From positions 2,356,001 through 2,420,000 of the forward strand of contig NC_013131.1 of the NCBI RefSeq assembly GCF_000024025.1: a stretch of DNA of 64,000 nucleotides, read 5' to 3'. Below the pieces are notes generated by a model that saw only the letters and a list, made by a program, of their open reading frames with translations, did not search any database and was not told where the DNA came from. The DNA is from Catenulispora acidiphila DSM 44928 (GTDB lineage: Bacteria > Actinomycetota > Actinomycetes > Streptomycetales > Catenulisporaceae). The position numbers were made by a program, and so were the translations under genes. Numbering within the stretch: the first letter of the stretch is position 1; each line of letters opens with the position of its first letter. Of the stretch, positions 17,486 to 25,527 are shown one piece after another.

Positions 17486-18001
17486 ATGTCCGAAGCCGAA
17501 GACGAGTTCCGGGAATTCGCGGTCGCGGTCCAGGGGCATTTGCGGCGCAGTGCGTATCTGCTGTGCGGGGACTGGCATCTGGCCGAGGACATCGTCCAGA
17601 GTGCGTTCGTCAAGATCTTTCGGGTCTGGCGGCGGGTGCGGAAGGTCGAGAACCAGCTCGGGTACGCCCGGCAGGTGGTCTACCGGTGCTTCCTGGACCA
17701 GTACCGCAAGGACAAGAAGCAGCTTCCCACGGTGCCGATCGCGGGGGCGGCGGACCATGTGCTGGTGGAGTCAGTGCTCGACGATTCCTCCTTCGCGGGG
17801 GTCGTCGTGGAGGCGCTGGCTGAGCTGCCGCCGAGGGCGCGCGCCGTGATCGTGCTCCGGTTCTGGGAGGACATGAGCGTCGAGCAGGCCGCCACGGTGC
17901 TGGGTGTGACGACGGGGACGGTGAAGAGCCAGACGTCGCGGGCCGTCGCACAGCTGCGCGGACGTCTGGCGGCCGGGCTGAACGAACAGGCTCGCTGGTG
18001 A
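17486..18001 (+). CDS. ECF sigma factor, SigE-like (SigE50 type)
   Basis: 171 residues, standard for short ECF sigma factors. Sigma-2 covers about 10-80 (LLCGDWHLAEDIVQSAFVKI is the core-binding/-10 region). Sigma-4 begins at LAELPPRARAVIVLRFWEDM and contains the HTH SVEQAATVLGVTTGTVKS. It directs RNA polymerase to a specific promoter set, often in response to envelope or oxidative stress. ATG 17486 is preceded by AGGGGGC. The downstream gene overlaps by 4 bp (GTGA) and encodes a single-pass membrane protein, as expected for a sigma/anti-sigma pair. Confidence 0.9.
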   Translation: MSEAEDEFREFAVAVQGHLRRSAYLLCGDWHLAEDIVQSAFVKIFRVWRRVRKVENQLGYARQVVYRCFLDQYRKDKKQLPTVPIAGAADHVLVESVLDDSSFAGVVVEALAELPPRARAVIVLRFWEDMSVEQAATVLGVTTGTVKSQTSRAVAQLRGRLAAGLNEQARW

Positions 18002-19548
18002 AGGACTCTGGAGCGGATTTCATGGATGACGACGACGTGCGCCGCATGCTGGGGAAGGCGGTCATGAAAGAAGAGAAGCTCGAGCGGGACATAGTCGGCT
18101 CGGCTGTGGGCATCGTGCTGAACCGGCGGCGTCGCGCGCGGCTGTATGGGGCGACCGCTTCCGGCCTGGCGGTGGCGATGGGCGCCACGGCGTTGATCTG
18201 GGCGACCGGGTCCTCCGTCACGGCGCGTCGGGAGCAGCCGGCCGCGAGCACGACCACCGCCGTCTCGACCTCGACGGCGGCCGCGGCGGATCCGTCCGCG
18301 TGGGACAAGGACCACGACATCTTCTACCGGCTGCCGGGTCTGTTGAACCCGTTGCTGCCCAAGGGCATGTCCCTGACGAAGAGCGGGACGGTGCTGCCCA
18401 ACACGGACTTCTGGCTGAACGGCCCGACCGGGACCAACGACTTCACCCTGAGCGCCATGACCAAGTCCGAGCGGAACAAGGCGATGGAGGAGGGCTGCGT
18501 CGTCGGCGGCGTGTGCAGCCACCATGACGTTCCCGGTGGGACGCTCTACATCGCGACCAAGAACTTCACGGCCGACTACGGCGGCGCCACGGGATGGGCC
18601 GTGGGCACGGCCAAGCAGGTGCTGAGCTTCGGCGACGAGTACGAGTTCGTCCCGTCGGCCGCCGACGGCATGGTGGTCGACGTGATCATGTCCGGCACCG
18701 TCTCCTTCGAGCACTACGCGCCCCACCCGCCGTCCGACGACTACCAAGGCAGCTGGCCGCCCTCGCCCGCGCCGGCCGGGGCGTTCGACTCCTCGGGCGA
18801 CCTGTTGTCCGCGGACGCCTTCGCCGCGCTGATCGCCAAGCCCGGATTCGCCGCGGTCACCAAGCTCCTGGACCGCCACAGCCCGGTCGACAAGGCGACG
18901 CTGGCCCGCCACAAGGCGGCCGACGCCGCCATCGCGGCGGCGGTCAAGCCGGTCCTGCCGCCCGGGCTCACCCTCGCCATCGGCGGCGACCAGGGGATGC
19001 CCAGCGAAGCGGAGTTGACCCTGACCGGTCCCTCCGGCGCCAACGAATTCAGCTGGACGGCCGAGCCGCAGGTGAAGAACTGGCACCACAGCCAGGCCTG
19101 CCAGTCCCACACCCTGGCGAACTGCACGGCGAAGGACGTTCCCGGCGGCCAGATCGAGGTCACGCACACGTCGCAAACCGCTGCGAAGCAGGGCTATCCG
19201 GCGGCCTACGCACCGGGCGAGGCGGACACCCCGATCTCCGGCGCAGACGTGTACAAATATCTGCCCGACGACCCGAAGGGCACGATCATCTCCATCTCGA
19301 CCGGAGAGCAGATCCACGACATCCCCTGGGCGGCCACCCGCCCCACCACCGGCGTCTGGGCCGAGACCACCACGCCCTGGCCGCCGGCGGCGCGCACCGG
19401 CGAGGCCTTCGACGCCGGCGGCTCGCTGCTGACCGTCGACCAGGCGGCGGCCATGGTGCGGCACCCGGGGATCGCGGACATCGTGCGGACGGTCACCGCC
19501 GCGACGGACCCGCTCGACGGCATGAGCGGCCTGCAGGTCTGGCAATGA
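17998..19548 (+). CDS. Membrane-anchored candidate anti-sigma partner with duplicated extracytoplasmic domain
   Basis: 516 residues. A short charged cytoplasmic N-terminus (about 1-43) is followed by one transmembrane helix (about 44-66, LAVAMGATALIWATG), a Thr/Ser/Ala linker, and two copies of an outside domain. Repeat marks: LLPKGMSL and VLPPGLTL; LNGPTGTNDF and LTGPSGANEF; GAFDSSGDLLS and EAFDAGGSLLT. No ZAS zinc motif (HxxxCxxC) is visible in the N-terminus. GTG 17998 overlaps the sigma stop, so the two are co-translated. Anti-sigma function is inferred from position and topology only. Each repeat has a conserved Cys pair (about 160 and 350), which may form disulfides. Confidence 0.65.
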   Translation: MKDSGADFMDDDDVRRMLGKAVMKEEKLERDIVGSAVGIVLNRRRRARLYGATASGLAVAMGATALIWATGSSVTARREQPAASTTTAVSTSTAAAADPSAWDKDHDIFYRLPGLLNPLLPKGMSLTKSGTVLPNTDFWLNGPTGTNDFTLSAMTKSERNKAMEEGCVVGGVCSHHDVPGGTLYIATKNFTADYGGATGWAVGTAKQVLSFGDEYEFVPSAADGMVVDVIMSGTVSFEHYAPHPPSDDYQGSWPPSPAPAGAFDSSGDLLSADAFAALIAKPGFAAVTKLLDRHSPVDKATLARHKAADAAIAAAVKPVLPPGLTLAIGGDQGMPSEAELTLTGPSGANEFSWTAEPQVKNWHHSQACQSHTLANCTAKDVPGGQIEVTHTSQTAAKQGYPAAYAPGEADTPISGADVYKYLPDDPKGTIISISTGEQIHDIPWAATRPTTGVWAETTTPWPPAARTGEAFDAGGSLLTVDQAAAMVRHPGIADIVRTVTAATDPLDGMSGLQVWQ

Positions 19549-21776: not shown

Positions 21777-21811
21777 CCAGCTCAGACCGGACAGCCCCGC
21801 GGTTTGTGACA
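21777..21811 (-). promoter_or_regulatory. ECF41-type promoter P1 (SdhA-like gene)
   Basis: On the minus strand: TGTCACA (21811-21805), 15 nt, CGGTCTGAGCTGG (21789-21777). It ends 17 bp before the ATG at 21759. It matches three further sites in the window and the published ECF41 -35 element TGTCACA with a CG-TC-type -10. Confidence 0.8.
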
Positions 21812-21819
21812 CCGCGGTG

Positions 21820-21854
21820 CGTCACAACCGGCGGGGCTGCGCGGTCTTAGCTGG
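21820..21854 (+). promoter_or_regulatory. ECF41-type promoter P2 (NmrA-like gene)
   Basis: CGTCACA (21820-21826), 15 nt, CGGTCTTAGCTGG (21842-21854), 33 bp before the ATG at 21888. P1 and P2 are divergent and only 8 bp apart. Confidence 0.8.
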
Positions 21855-22634: not shown

Positions 22635-22674
22635 CGGCCGGGCCCGCGCAGCACGACCTGCGCGGGCCCGGCCG
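22635..22674. terminator. Bidirectional hairpin terminator
   Basis: A perfect 17-bp stem (22635-22651 with 22658-22674; CGGCCGGGCCCGCGCAG) with a 6-nt loop fills nearly the whole gap between two convergent stop codons. Confidence 0.9.
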
Positions 22675-23109
22675 TCAGCGGTGCCAGCCGCCGAGCTTGT
22701 CCGGATTGAGCACGATCCACAGTGCGGTGATCCCGGCGGCGGTCCCGTCGATGCCCACGACCGCGACGGCTCGGCCGGTGCGGCGCAGGGCCAGGCCGGC
22801 GCGGCCGTTGACGACTTCCGTGCTCAGTTCGGCGTCGCCAGGCTCGCCAGGCTCGCCGGGCTCGTCCAGCGATCCCGGGCCCGACATCGATCCGGAGCCC
22901 CACAGCAACCCCGACTCACCCAGCAACGCCGCGGCGAGCCGGGCGACGTCCTGTGCGCCGCGAACCAGTCCCGGCAGCGCGGGTAGCCGTCCTCCGCTGT
23001 CGGACACCGCTATGACGTCGGCGGCCAGCGTCGCGCGCAGGGCGGCGACGTCCCCTCTCCGGCACGCTCGCGCGAAGCCGCGTACGAGGTCGTCATTCGG
23101 ATCGCGCAC
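22675..23109 (-). CDS. Free-standing ECF41 C-terminal (SnoaL/NTF2-like) domain protein
   Basis: 144 residues. Its order of motifs copies the C-terminal extension of ECF41 sigma factors: FARACRRGDVAALRATLAADV, then SDSGGR (the DGGGR motif), and NPDKLGGW at the end. No sigma-2 or sigma-4 domain is present. In ECF41 proteins this extension controls sigma activity like a fused anti-sigma, with DGGGR and NPDKL as key motifs. A Gly/Pro/Glu insert (residues 76-100, repeated PGEPGEPG) is unusual. GTG 23109 overlaps the NADH dehydrogenase 3' end by 17 bp, so it belongs to that operon under P3. It may be a trans-acting modulator of the neighbouring sigma factor, or a simple SnoaL-like enzyme. Confidence 0.7.
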   Translation of the reverse strand: MRDPNDDLVRGFARACRRGDVAALRATLAADVIAVSDSGGRLPALPGLVRGAQDVARLAAALLGESGLLWGSGSMSGPGSLDEPGEPGEPGDAELSTEVVNGRAGLALRRTGRAVAVVGIDGTAAGITALWIVLNPDKLGGWHR

Positions 23110-24451
23110 GATAACCCGGCGGCTCTGCCCGCGCCTCCAGCGGTTCCCCGCCGGTGACGAACGCGCGGCGCGGATCCTGCACGGATGCGAGCGAGACGAT
23201 GTCGCGGCCGAACACCGCGGCGGTGAGCCAGATCGCGAACACCCGCACCTTCCGCTCCCAACTCGGAACCGCCAGGACGTGGTACCCCCGGTGCATCAGC
23301 CACGCCGGGAAGCCCTTGATGACGAGGCCACGGTACTGGAAGATCCCGCGTCCGAGGCCGAGGGTGGCGACGGTGCCGAGGCTGTGGTGCACATAGGGTT
23401 TCGGCTCGCGTCCGCGCAGGGCGGCCGCGATGTTCTTCGCCAGCAGCTTGCCTTGGCGCACGGCGTGCTGGGCGTTGGGCACGGTCGTCGCGCCGGGCCG
23501 GCCGGCGGCGAGGTCCGGGACGGCGGCGTCGTCGCCCGCGCCCCAGGCGTCCGGGATCGGCGCGTCCTCGGTGCCGACCCGCAGGTCGGAGCGCACGACG
23601 AGCATTCCGCGCCGGTCGATCGGCAGGTCGGTGTGGCTGCGGACCATGGGGTTCGCGGCGTTGCCCACGGTCCACACGATCAGTTCGGAGTCGAACTCCT
23701 CGCCGGTGGACAGCACCACGTGGCCGTCGAGCGCCGAGACCAAGGTGGCACCCAGGTGCACGCGCGCTCCGCGCTTCTCCAGCGAGCGCACCACCCACTT
23801 CCCGGGCTCCTCCGATACCTCCGGAAGGATTCGTTTCCCGGCCTCGACCAGGTGGAAGTTCAGCTCGGCGGGGTCGAGCTCCGGGTAGGACCGGACCAGC
23901 GCGCTCGCCAGGGACAGCAGCTCGGCGAAGCCCTCGACGCCGGAGAACCCGCCGCCGACGAAGGTGGCGGTGAGCAGCGCCTGGCGCCGCGGACCCGGCG
24001 GGAGCGCCGAGGCCCGGTCGAAGGCGGTCAGCAGCCGGTCCCGGATCGCGACCGCTTCCTCGACGTGCTTCAGGCCGATCGCCTGCTCCGCGACGCCGGG
24101 AACGGCGAGCTTGCGCGTGACCGCACCGGCGGTGACCGCGACGATGTCGTACTCGATCGCGAATTCCGGGCCCTCGGCGGGACGGACGGTGACGGTGCGC
24201 CGCGCGTGGTCGATCGCGACGACCGAGCCGGCGACGATCGTGCTGCGGCGCAGATGCCGGCGCAGCGACACCGCGGCGTGGCGGGCCTCGACCGATCCGG
24301 CCAGCACTTCCGGGAGGAAGGGCTGGTAGGTCATGTAGGGGCGGGGGTCCACGACGATGATGCGGGCCTCGTCCCGCCGGAGCTTCTTCTCCAGCTTCCA
24401 GGCGGTATAGAAGCCCGCGTAGCCGCCGCCGACAACCAGAATCGTTCGCAC
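23093..24451 (-). CDS. ndh: Type II NADH dehydrogenase (NDH-2)
   Basis: 452 residues. Two Rossmann motifs: VVGGGYAGFYTAWKLEK at the start for FAD and FVGGGFSGVEGFAELL near 165 for NADH. The segment AIPDAWGAGDDAAVPDL marks the flavin-proximal loop. The C-terminus has a hydrophobic/amphipathic stretch (YRGLVIKGFPAWLMHRGYH) for membrane association. NDH-2 passes electrons from NADH to menaquinone without pumping protons. GTG 24451 has AGGA upstream. The ECF41 promoter P3 lies about 30 bp before the start; the SnoaL-like gene overlaps downstream. This NDH-2 is probably a stress-induced copy. Confidence 0.87.
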   Translation of the reverse strand: MRTILVVGGGYAGFYTAWKLEKKLRRDEARIIVVDPRPYMTYQPFLPEVLAGSVEARHAAVSLRRHLRRSTIVAGSVVAIDHARRTVTVRPAEGPEFAIEYDIVAVTAGAVTRKLAVPGVAEQAIGLKHVEEAVAIRDRLLTAFDRASALPPGPRRQALLTATFVGGGFSGVEGFAELLSLASALVRSYPELDPAELNFHLVEAGKRILPEVSEEPGKWVVRSLEKRGARVHLGATLVSALDGHVVLSTGEEFDSELIVWTVGNAANPMVRSHTDLPIDRRGMLVVRSDLRVGTEDAPIPDAWGAGDDAAVPDLAAGRPGATTVPNAQHAVRQGKLLAKNIAAALRGREPKPYVHHSLGTVATLGLGRGIFQYRGLVIKGFPAWLMHRGYHVLAVPSWERKVRVFAIWLTAAVFGRDIVSLASVQDPRRAFVTGGEPLEARAEPPGYRARSE

Positions 24452-24479: not shown

Positions 24480-24514
24480 CCAGCTAAGACCGGGTAGCGG
24501 CCCGATTTGTGACG
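24480..24514 (-). promoter_or_regulatory. ECF41-type promoter P3 (ndh operon)
   Basis: Minus strand: CGTCACA (24514-24508), 15 nt, CGGTCTTAGCTGG (24492-24480). It ends 28 bp before the GTG of the NADH dehydrogenase and lies between that gene and the sigma gene. Confidence 0.8.
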
Positions 24515-24540: not shown

Positions 24541-25452
24541 TCAGGCCGGGACGGGAACCTGTGCGTTCTTCGCCGGGTTGACCATCCACAACACCTGGTC
24601 GATGCCGTCCTGCGAGGCGGTGACCGCCAGCACGCCGTACACGGTCCCGCCGCTGAGCAGGACGGCGCAGGTCTGGCCGTTCATGGTCGTGAACCTGGTC
24701 TCGATCCCTTCCCAAAACCAGGACATCGCAGCCAGGAACTTCGCCACCCACGGCGCGCCGACCACCGCCCGGCGGGCAACCTGGCGCCGGCCGTCGCCGT
24801 CGGCGAGGCTGGTCACGTCGGCGGCGAGGAGCTGCTCGAGGGCGGCCATGTCGCCGGTGCGGGCGGCGTCGAGGAACGTGGTGAGCAGTTCGCGCTGCGC
24901 GGCGGCGGCGATCGGGGCGTGCCGGTCGCGGGTCATGTGCTTGCGGGCGCGGCTGACCGACTGGCGGACCGCCGGCTCGGTCGACTGCACGATGTCGGCG
25001 ATCTCCGCGTAGGAGTAGTCGAAGGCTTCGCGCAGGATGTACGCGGCGCGCTCGTTCGGCGTGAGCTTCTCCATCAGCAGCAGCGCTGCGAACTCCAGCG
25101 CCTCGCCGCGCTCGGCGCCGAGGTAGGGGTCGGCGCTGGTGTCGACCGGCTCGGGCAGCCACGGCCCGACGTACGTCTCGCGGCGCTTGCGTGCGGACTG
25201 CAGCTCGTTGATGGCCAGACGGGTCATCGCCGTCGCCAGGAACGCGCCGGGGTTGGTGATCTCGCTGCGGTCGTGGGTCTGCCAGCGCAGCCACACTTCC
25301 TGGACCAGGTCCTCGGCGTCGGTGGCGCTGCCGAGCATGCGGTAGCCGATGCCGAACAGGCGGGGGCGGACGCTCATGAAGACCGCCGCGGCCTGGTCGA
25401 GGTCGTCCCTGTCTGATCCGGTCACAGCGTGCACCCTCTCATCCTGTGCCAA
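24541..25452 (-). CDS. sigJ: ECF41-type RNA polymerase sigma factor (SigJ-like)
   Basis: 303 residues, long for an ECF factor. Sigma-2 is at about 20-90 (GYRMLGSATDAEDLVQEVWL), followed by the diagnostic ECF41 linker GPWLPEP, then sigma-4 (LTPNERAAYILREAFDYSYA, HTH to VRQSVSRARKHM) and a C-terminal SnoaL/NTF2-like extension with DGDGRRQ and VNPAKN. The extension replaces a classical anti-sigma. TTG 25452 has a perfect GGAGG at 6 nt; GTG 25434 and GTG 25425 are alternatives. NPAK rather than NPDK is a variation in the regulatory motif. Four promoters of the ECF41 type surround it, but none is visible in front of its own gene. Confidence 0.88.
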   Translation of the reverse strand: MAQDERVHAVTGSDRDDLDQAAAVFMSVRPRLFGIGYRMLGSATDAEDLVQEVWLRWQTHDRSEITNPGAFLATAMTRLAINELQSARKRRETYVGPWLPEPVDTSADPYLGAERGEALEFAALLLMEKLTPNERAAYILREAFDYSYAEIADIVQSTEPAVRQSVSRARKHMTRDRHAPIAAAAQRELLTTFLDAARTGDMAALEQLLAADVTSLADGDGRRQVARRAVVGAPWVAKFLAAMSWFWEGIETRFTTMNGQTCAVLLSGGTVYGVLAVTASQDGIDQVLWMVNPAKNAQVPVPA

Positions 25453-25492: not shown

Positions 25493-25527
25493 TGTCACAA
25501 ACAGCGGCGGTCCCCGGTCTCAGCTGG
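25493..25527 (+). promoter_or_regulatory. ECF41-type promoter P4 (ferritin-like operon)
   Basis: TGTCACA (25493-25499), 15 nt, CGGTCTCAGCTGG (25515-25527), 32 bp before the ATG at 25560. It faces away from the sigma gene. Confidence 0.8.

Follow-up and report, generated by a model that had tools for sequence, protein, structure and literature searches.

The gene at positions 22675–23109 (minus strand) of a 64,000-nucleotide stretch of Catenulispora acidiphila DSM 44928 DNA (the window, at its full length) encodes a free-standing ECF41-type control domain of 144 amino acids, with a GTG start and a predicted NTF2-like fold. We think it probable that this detached domain acts in trans on the adjacent intact ECF41 sigma factor, with a predicted binding between the two, and that it is sigma-induced and most likely inhibitory. 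The sequence relationship of the free tail, its linkage and co-occurrence with a sigma factor, the promoter motif, and the selection acting on it were all computed here.

ECF41, a group of ECF sigma factors with a wide distribution, counted about 400 proteins across 10 phyla in 2012 (PMC3426412). The founding study argued for function without a second regulatory protein, reported that truncating the fused tail at its distal end raised activity about 20-fold and 120-fold, and raised tail-based dimers as a hypothesis (PMC3426412). The distal tail, carrying NPDKL, is described as keeping the sigma factor closed via the YVGPWLPEP linker (PMC7730460, PMC9023288), the stretch between sigma2 and sigma4 that forms the contact site of NPDKL (PMC7730460).

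The tail part of the NCBIfam SigX4/SigJ models matches the 144-aa protein. Residues 5–63 align with positions 166–224 of the 281 in TIGR02957 (E 7.3e-16), the tail part of PRK09636 matches at E 1e-15, and an NCBIfam search at E 1 gave three matches, all of them sigma models. BLASTP against the window's own sigma factor found 43% identity over 56 residues (E 1e-7), and with a profile of five free tails the best-ranked solved structure was SigJ of Mycobacterium tuberculosis (5xe7; E 6.6e-10). Neither region 2 nor region 4 of Sigma70 appeared in the 144 residues in a Pfam search at E 10, and SnoaL_2 (17.4 of 27 bits, E 0.0068) and DUF4440 (15.7 of 25.2 bits) stayed under their Pfam cut-offs. Judged as an ECF41 sigma factor, then, the protein lacks sigma2 and sigma4, and its upstream neighbor is an oxidoreductase gene; judged as an ECF41 C-terminal regulatory domain, it has the sequence match and both the D.GG and NPDKL-type motifs and lacks the fusion to a sigma factor; judged as a SnoaL/ketosteroid-isomerase-like enzyme, it has the NTF2-like fold and no sequence match above a curated cut-off. 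By sequence, an ECF41-type tail is supported over a SnoaL enzyme. The preliminary description of this DNA, which had reported a 144-residue protein with the marks of an ECF41 tail and no sigma domains and had proposed alignment to the sigma factor as a check, is borne out on both points. A search of a plasmid collection for the tail gene gave no match.

The predicted structure is less discriminating. The tail model is NTF2-like (mean pLDDT 84.8), and Foldseek placed SigJ first (E 2.5e-5); in a second structure comparison, which matched many NTF2-like proteins, the SigG1 tail came first (Z 12.2) and SigJ tenth (Z 10.1). Because of this second ranking, the modeled fold, common to regulatory tails and enzymes, does not by itself decide between the two. 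The preliminary description had named kinship with enzymatic SnoaL proteins, in fold and phylogeny, as the outcome that would count against it; sequence and the tail tree both place the protein with ECF41-type tails, and the fold alone is indecisive. The model of the sigma factor was poor (pTM 0.42), and we built no claim of tail-linker contact on it. The protein could instead be an enzyme or ligand binder of the NTF2/SnoaL-like kind, working in a pathway run by the ECF41 regulon (oxidoreductase, FAD, NmrA-like, Ferritin-like), recruited from an ECF41 tail and without action on a sigma factor. A common fold suits this alternative, as do ketosteroid isomerases, epoxide hydrolases, and SnoaL-like proteins with structure scores near or above that of SigJ; the sequence match to ECF41 tails, with SnoaL_2 and DUF4440 below cut-off, speaks against it, and the genomic context discussed below bears on it further.

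The tail gene is the last gene of an operon behind a perfect ECF41-type promoter. The first gene (23093–24451, minus strand) encodes a pyridine nucleotide-disulphide oxidoreductase (PF07992), presumably ndh, and its last 17 bases overlap the beginning of the tail gene. The promoter, CGTCACA-N16-GGTCTTAGCTGG, was located by motif scan at 24480–24513 (minus strand), and its perfect match to GTCACA-N16-GGTCTNAGCTGG upholds the earlier placement of the gene in an operon driven by a promoter of this type; the published ECF41 promoter is TGTCACA-n16-CGTC (PMC3426412). An intact ECF41/SigJ-type sigma factor, the presumed partner, is encoded at 24541–25452 (minus strand, with a provisional TTG start as listed) and carries YVGPWLPEP in its sigma2–sigma4 linker (25147–25173, minus strand) and NPAK in its own tail (24568–24579, minus strand). 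Directly after the stop codon of the tail gene, between convergent genes, is a strong hairpin (22636–22673, minus strand; −58 kcal/mol for 71 nt, z −5.4) that is a probable terminator. Elsewhere in the window, at 17486–19548, another ECF-like sigma gene stands before a gene whose product likely spans the membrane once, by eye an ordinary sigma/anti-sigma layout.

GTCACA-N16-GGTCTNAGCTGG has four matches in the window, all perfect, against a mean of 0.24 in shuffled sequences with three mismatches allowed. The other three stand before a gene for a FAD-binding succinate dehydrogenase/fumarate reductase-like protein (21777–21810, minus strand), an NmrA-like gene (21821–21854, plus strand), and a Ferritin-like (PF12902) gene (25494–25527, plus strand). 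Across the whole genome, a single contig of 10,467,782 bases, there are five perfect sites and seven at up to two mismatches, with one for the backward control. Catenulispora rubra (G001) has a close variant of the promoter at the same place before ndh. In the founding study, ECF41 sigma factors are described as controlling one gene or operon, in contrast to the four perfect motifs before four transcription units between 21777 and 25527 (PMC3426412). The fifth perfect genomic site precedes an NmrA-like gene beside a second sigma factor of the same kind (9.234 Mb, 69% identical), and no free tail was found there within the 16 kb read. This second sigma factor (L183, G000:C1:9227000-9243000) belongs to the same subgroup and has the genome's only other perfect site of the pattern; it may share targets with the sigma factor of the window.

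Relatives of the free tail were collected by scanning genomes with a five-row profile, and the best 80 of 195 were kept as loci; these loci were picked up by two peptide patterns, one built around the NPxK motif, and are a biased set. The best 80 comprise 38 tail-only forms, 37 in which a sigma2-like piece bears the tail but an intact sigma core is absent, and 5 full sigma factors. A first profile search had given 44 tail-only and 31 sigma2-plus-tail forms, and a profile derived from the remnants shifted 6 of the 44 to give the present 38 and 37; three loci (L092, L111, and L144) are placed among the two-domain forms in the tree, yet have no sigma2 piece in frame. The 75 free forms span 10 families and 7 orders. 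In the two-domain proteins (L080–L154, e.g., L104:6778-7734), a variable linker joins a sigma2-like piece to an ECF41 tail. In the window's order, some forms also retain a weak sigma4. Short frames in four genomes (G033:C7, G025:C21, G012, and G046) were considered as free tails and left uncounted, since their reading frames look like disrupted or incomplete sigma genes or a short fragment.

For 65 of the 75 free forms among these best 80 of 195 relatives, the fetched locus also encodes, outside the free form itself, a sigma core scoring at least 100 bits, a count that includes a few cores with their own tail out of frame (e.g., L083); for the other 10, none was present in the stretch read, and some of those stretches end at contig ends. 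By the first classification, linkage held for 41 of 44 tail-only forms, 24 of 31 sigma2-plus-tail forms, and none of the 5 full-length relatives. The nearest sigma core is on the same strand and upstream of the free form in 57 of 75. Where the tail follows closely behind the sigma gene (23 tail-only loci), a start codon is present within 60 bases of the sigma stop in 20. Within Catenulispora, 4 of 10 genomes, the window's included, have a free form, each at one locus beside an ECF41 sigma gene.

The promoter motif recurs in these loci, with 93 matches in the 80 loci (1.28 Mb) and 1 for the reversed control. In 24 of 75 loci (6 of 38 tail-only and 18 of 37 two-domain) it stands no more than 300 bases ahead of the free gene, and in 3 more, among the 6 loci with an ndh-tail pair, it precedes that pair, for a total of 27/75; within 400 bases before a sigma gene it was found in 3 of 65. 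For anti-sigma factors as a functional class, whose genes are linked to the sigma gene and co-expressed or sigma-dependent, the corresponding observations are the linkage in 65 of 75 loci and the sigma-type motif in 27 of 75, and the free tail is at most a candidate member. Feedback in trans by the free tail is plausible, and it gains from the conserved linkage and promoters. An enzyme or ligand-binding function draws some support from the position of the tail gene immediately behind an oxidoreductase gene, seen in the window and in 6 of 75 loci (L075, L082, L095, L096, L113, and L128). The metabolic neighbors of free tails vary between loci, however, whereas the sigma gene is constant in 65 of 75; the family also retains two motifs of the regulatory domain, D.GG and NPxKL, and the two-domain forms retain a sigma2-like piece under selection. 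We consider an enzyme or ligand-binding protein unlikely and favor a regulatory tail.

Co-occurrence points the same way across 391 genomes of the order. With the profile, 58 tail matches scored 122 bits or more, and the next score was 114; the 58 fall in 43 genomes, including 5 that had supplied query rows of the profile. The partner sigma factor (E at most 1e-75) is present in 86 of the 391 genomes, including all 43 with a strong tail match, and 48 of the 58 tail matches lie within 10 kb of a sigma match. Since 43 of 43 tail genomes have the sigma factor and 43 of 86 sigma genomes lack a strong tail match, the tail implies the sigma factor and the sigma factor does not imply the tail. The Fisher value for this association, 1.5e-33, ignores relatedness, and the first-pass search scored only 11 tail and 6 sigma candidates per genome, so that misses are possible. 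In the 30 loci retrieved from the 58 tail matches, no in-frame sigma core exceeded 59 bits.

The preliminary description had taken the free tail for a loose copy of the neighboring sigma factor's own control domain, and the phylogeny contradicts this part of its proposal. A tail tree (159 rows, 125 columns, quick method, midpoint root), for which remnants (36 of 57) and full tails (70 of 110) were drawn at random, gathered the sampled neighbors' own tails into one set of 54 rows (support 99). The free forms made a separate set of 84 rows, with support of only 81 for the whole and 96–99 for nested sets, among them 26 tail-only rows that include the window (support 99). Because the two fall into different sets of the tree, the free tail is, on its sequence, not a copy of the neighbor's tail. 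Its probable ancestor is a second ECF41 sigma factor; the full-length sigma factors nearest the free set come from Rhodococcus, Agromyces, and two other genomes.

Loss of the sigma core, partly or wholly, in different taxa could also mean that the free tails are dying, functionless remains of a duplicated ECF41 sigma factor, a reading that the stronger divergence of the tail than of the sigma factor from C. rubra (72% against 83–84% identity) and the low-complexity insert in the window's species would suit. Selection argues in the other direction. The dN/dS ratio was 0.10–0.57 in ten related tail pairs (0.29 for the window against C. rubra), below 1 in every pair tested, and 22675–23109 is therefore a real gene. 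The spread over 10 families and 7 orders, the promoter motifs, the invariant residues, and the overlap with the upstream gene likewise weigh against decay, and we regard functionless remains as very improbable. In nine two-domain pairs, dN/dS was 0.11–0.45 for the sigma2 piece, 0.20–0.54 for the tail, and 0.46–0.98 for the linker. Given its ratio, the sigma2-like piece is under purifying selection and retained, and the idea that it is decaying was dropped because its sequence is constrained. It keeps the VQE..RW stretch, and RNA polymerase binding is possibly its role.

The regulatory motifs are well preserved in an alignment of 36 free tails (5 plus 31 of 43 listed tail-only stretches). The window's tail has SDSGGR, similar to DGGGR, at residues 36–41 (22987–23004, minus strand) and ends in NPDKLGGW at residues 135–142 (22684–22707, minus strand). 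In the SDSGGR region of the 36 tails, the first D is invariant and both G residues are nearly so, and D.GG occurs in 32; P.KL..W is invariant, with NPAKL in 16 tails and NPDKL in 15 (31 together). The YVGPWLPEP motif of the linker is nearly unchanged in 35 aligned partner sigma factors (5 plus 30 of 64 listed). The Gly/Pro/Glu insert, which the preliminary description had put at about residues 76–100 and viewed as a feature of the free form, maps to about residues 67–90 (22840–22911, minus strand), has low model confidence, and was found in 1 of the 36 tails; as judged from these sequences, it is private to the species. A different insert occupies the same place in L128, and L086 and L118, outside the 36-tail alignment, have other longer loops.

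The window's pair has D in the tail (NPDK) and A in the sigma factor (NPAK), and the preliminary description saw in this a plausible exchange of the control part. Among 85 tail-sigma pairs, 8 were unreadable at the motif, and of the remaining 77, from which the window's own pair was left out, 62 have the acid of NPxK in exactly one of the two proteins. A naive Fisher test on 75 rows (2 of the 77 pairs shared an already used sigma factor) gave 1e-6. Independent contrasts on the tree numbered 1 on supported branches and 4 on all branches, too few to test, and three of the four possible combinations of tail and sigma acid occur within Catenulispora. The one-sided acid thus held in most pairs, but with NPAKL and NPDKL nearly equal among free tails and so few contrasts, the exchange is only suggestive.

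The acid pattern also bears on the sign of regulation, as if the two ends competed for one site. The free tail, with its sigma2-like piece where present, might be a co-activator that pairs with the sigma factor or RNA polymerase and raises or redirects activity, for example by displacing the sigma factor's inhibitory tail from the linker. The VQE..RW stretch of the sigma2-like piece, under selection, is compatible with this; the acid pattern would be as well, though it depends on few independent changes. In the founding study, the published truncations cut both ways on the sign: in Bacillus licheniformis and Rhodobacter sphaeroides, activity depends on the first part of the fused tail, as a co-activator would suggest, but the distal part is inhibitory (PMC3426412). 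We judge co-activation to be distinctly unlikely and inhibition by the free tail the better reading.

Several known systems resemble the one proposed here. In SigO–RsoA of Bacillus subtilis (YvrI/YvrHa), each protein supplies the part that is missing in the other. The likeness to the window is that of a partial sigma-like protein working with another (PMC8103513); the difference is that the presumed partner sigma factor in the window is complete. PhyR similarly has a sigma-derived domain that does not start transcription and regulates in trans (PMC8103513), but its sigma-like domain captures the anti-sigma factor NepR, whereas the window's tail keeps the regulatory part and has lost the sigma core. 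Fused ECF41 tails (M. tuberculosis SigJ, Ecf41Bli, and Ecf41Rsp) have the domain in common with the free tail, as judged from sequence and from the predicted fold, and also share its D.GG and NPxKL motifs and its promoter type; they differ in being joined to sigma2–sigma4, the window's tail being encoded on its own and falling into a different set of tails. Oxidoreductase and epimerase-like neighbors, as in the window, are also described for fused ECF41 systems (PMC3426412).

SigG1–RsfG (ECF56) of Streptomyces tsukubaensis likewise pairs a SnoaL_2-tailed sigma factor with an adjoining small partner, and binding of RsfG to the sigma factor is demonstrated, unlike the predicted binding of the window's tail (PMC7730460). 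RsfG differs further in being described there without a Pfam domain, and the comparison is by description and neighboring genes rather than by the RsfG sequence (PMC7730460). Around 16 TIGR02960 sigma genes in 10 genomes of the order, no gene matched the free-tail profile. We take these sigma factors to be of the SigG1-like kind, and the free tail may still be kin to RsfG. Several of these genes (L195, L196, L198, L199, L201, and others) adjoin a small gene that looks, by eye, STAS-type. Word searches of the literature, covering titles and the starts of abstracts, found no published free-standing ECF41 tail, with supplements and most subscription papers outside their reach.

An explanation is proposed in which the ancestor of the free forms would have been a second ECF41 sigma factor that lost sigma4 and the GPWLPEP linker, leaving the sigma2-plus-tail forms that survive, with the whole sigma core then lost in Catenulispora and others; this order of loss is one that we infer. 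The intact sigma factor would activate the ndh-tail operon from the promoter at 24480–24513. The tail made in this way may bind the sigma factor, either at the conserved sigma2–sigma4 linker or by pairing with the sigma factor's own NTF2-like tail, and bound tail would most likely lower sigma activity, giving feedback that is perhaps dependent on a small ligand. Extended to seven actinobacterial orders, the proposal becomes more tentative, and we put it somewhat short of an even chance: an ECF41 sigma factor would have lost all but its sensor domain, and that domain would serve as a separate, sigma-induced regulator of another ECF41 sigma factor, itself intact, the free tail competing with the sigma factor's own tail for the linker to make a two-protein switch.

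In sum, such a two-protein switch, if true, would be new for a group believed to work without a partner protein, and the conserved separate control domain is a concrete candidate for a second ECF41 regulatory protein. The free tail is also a natural test of whether tails act between molecules, in a switch whose exchange of parts would be measurable. It also illustrates how a sigma factor may turn into a protein that regulates sigma factors.
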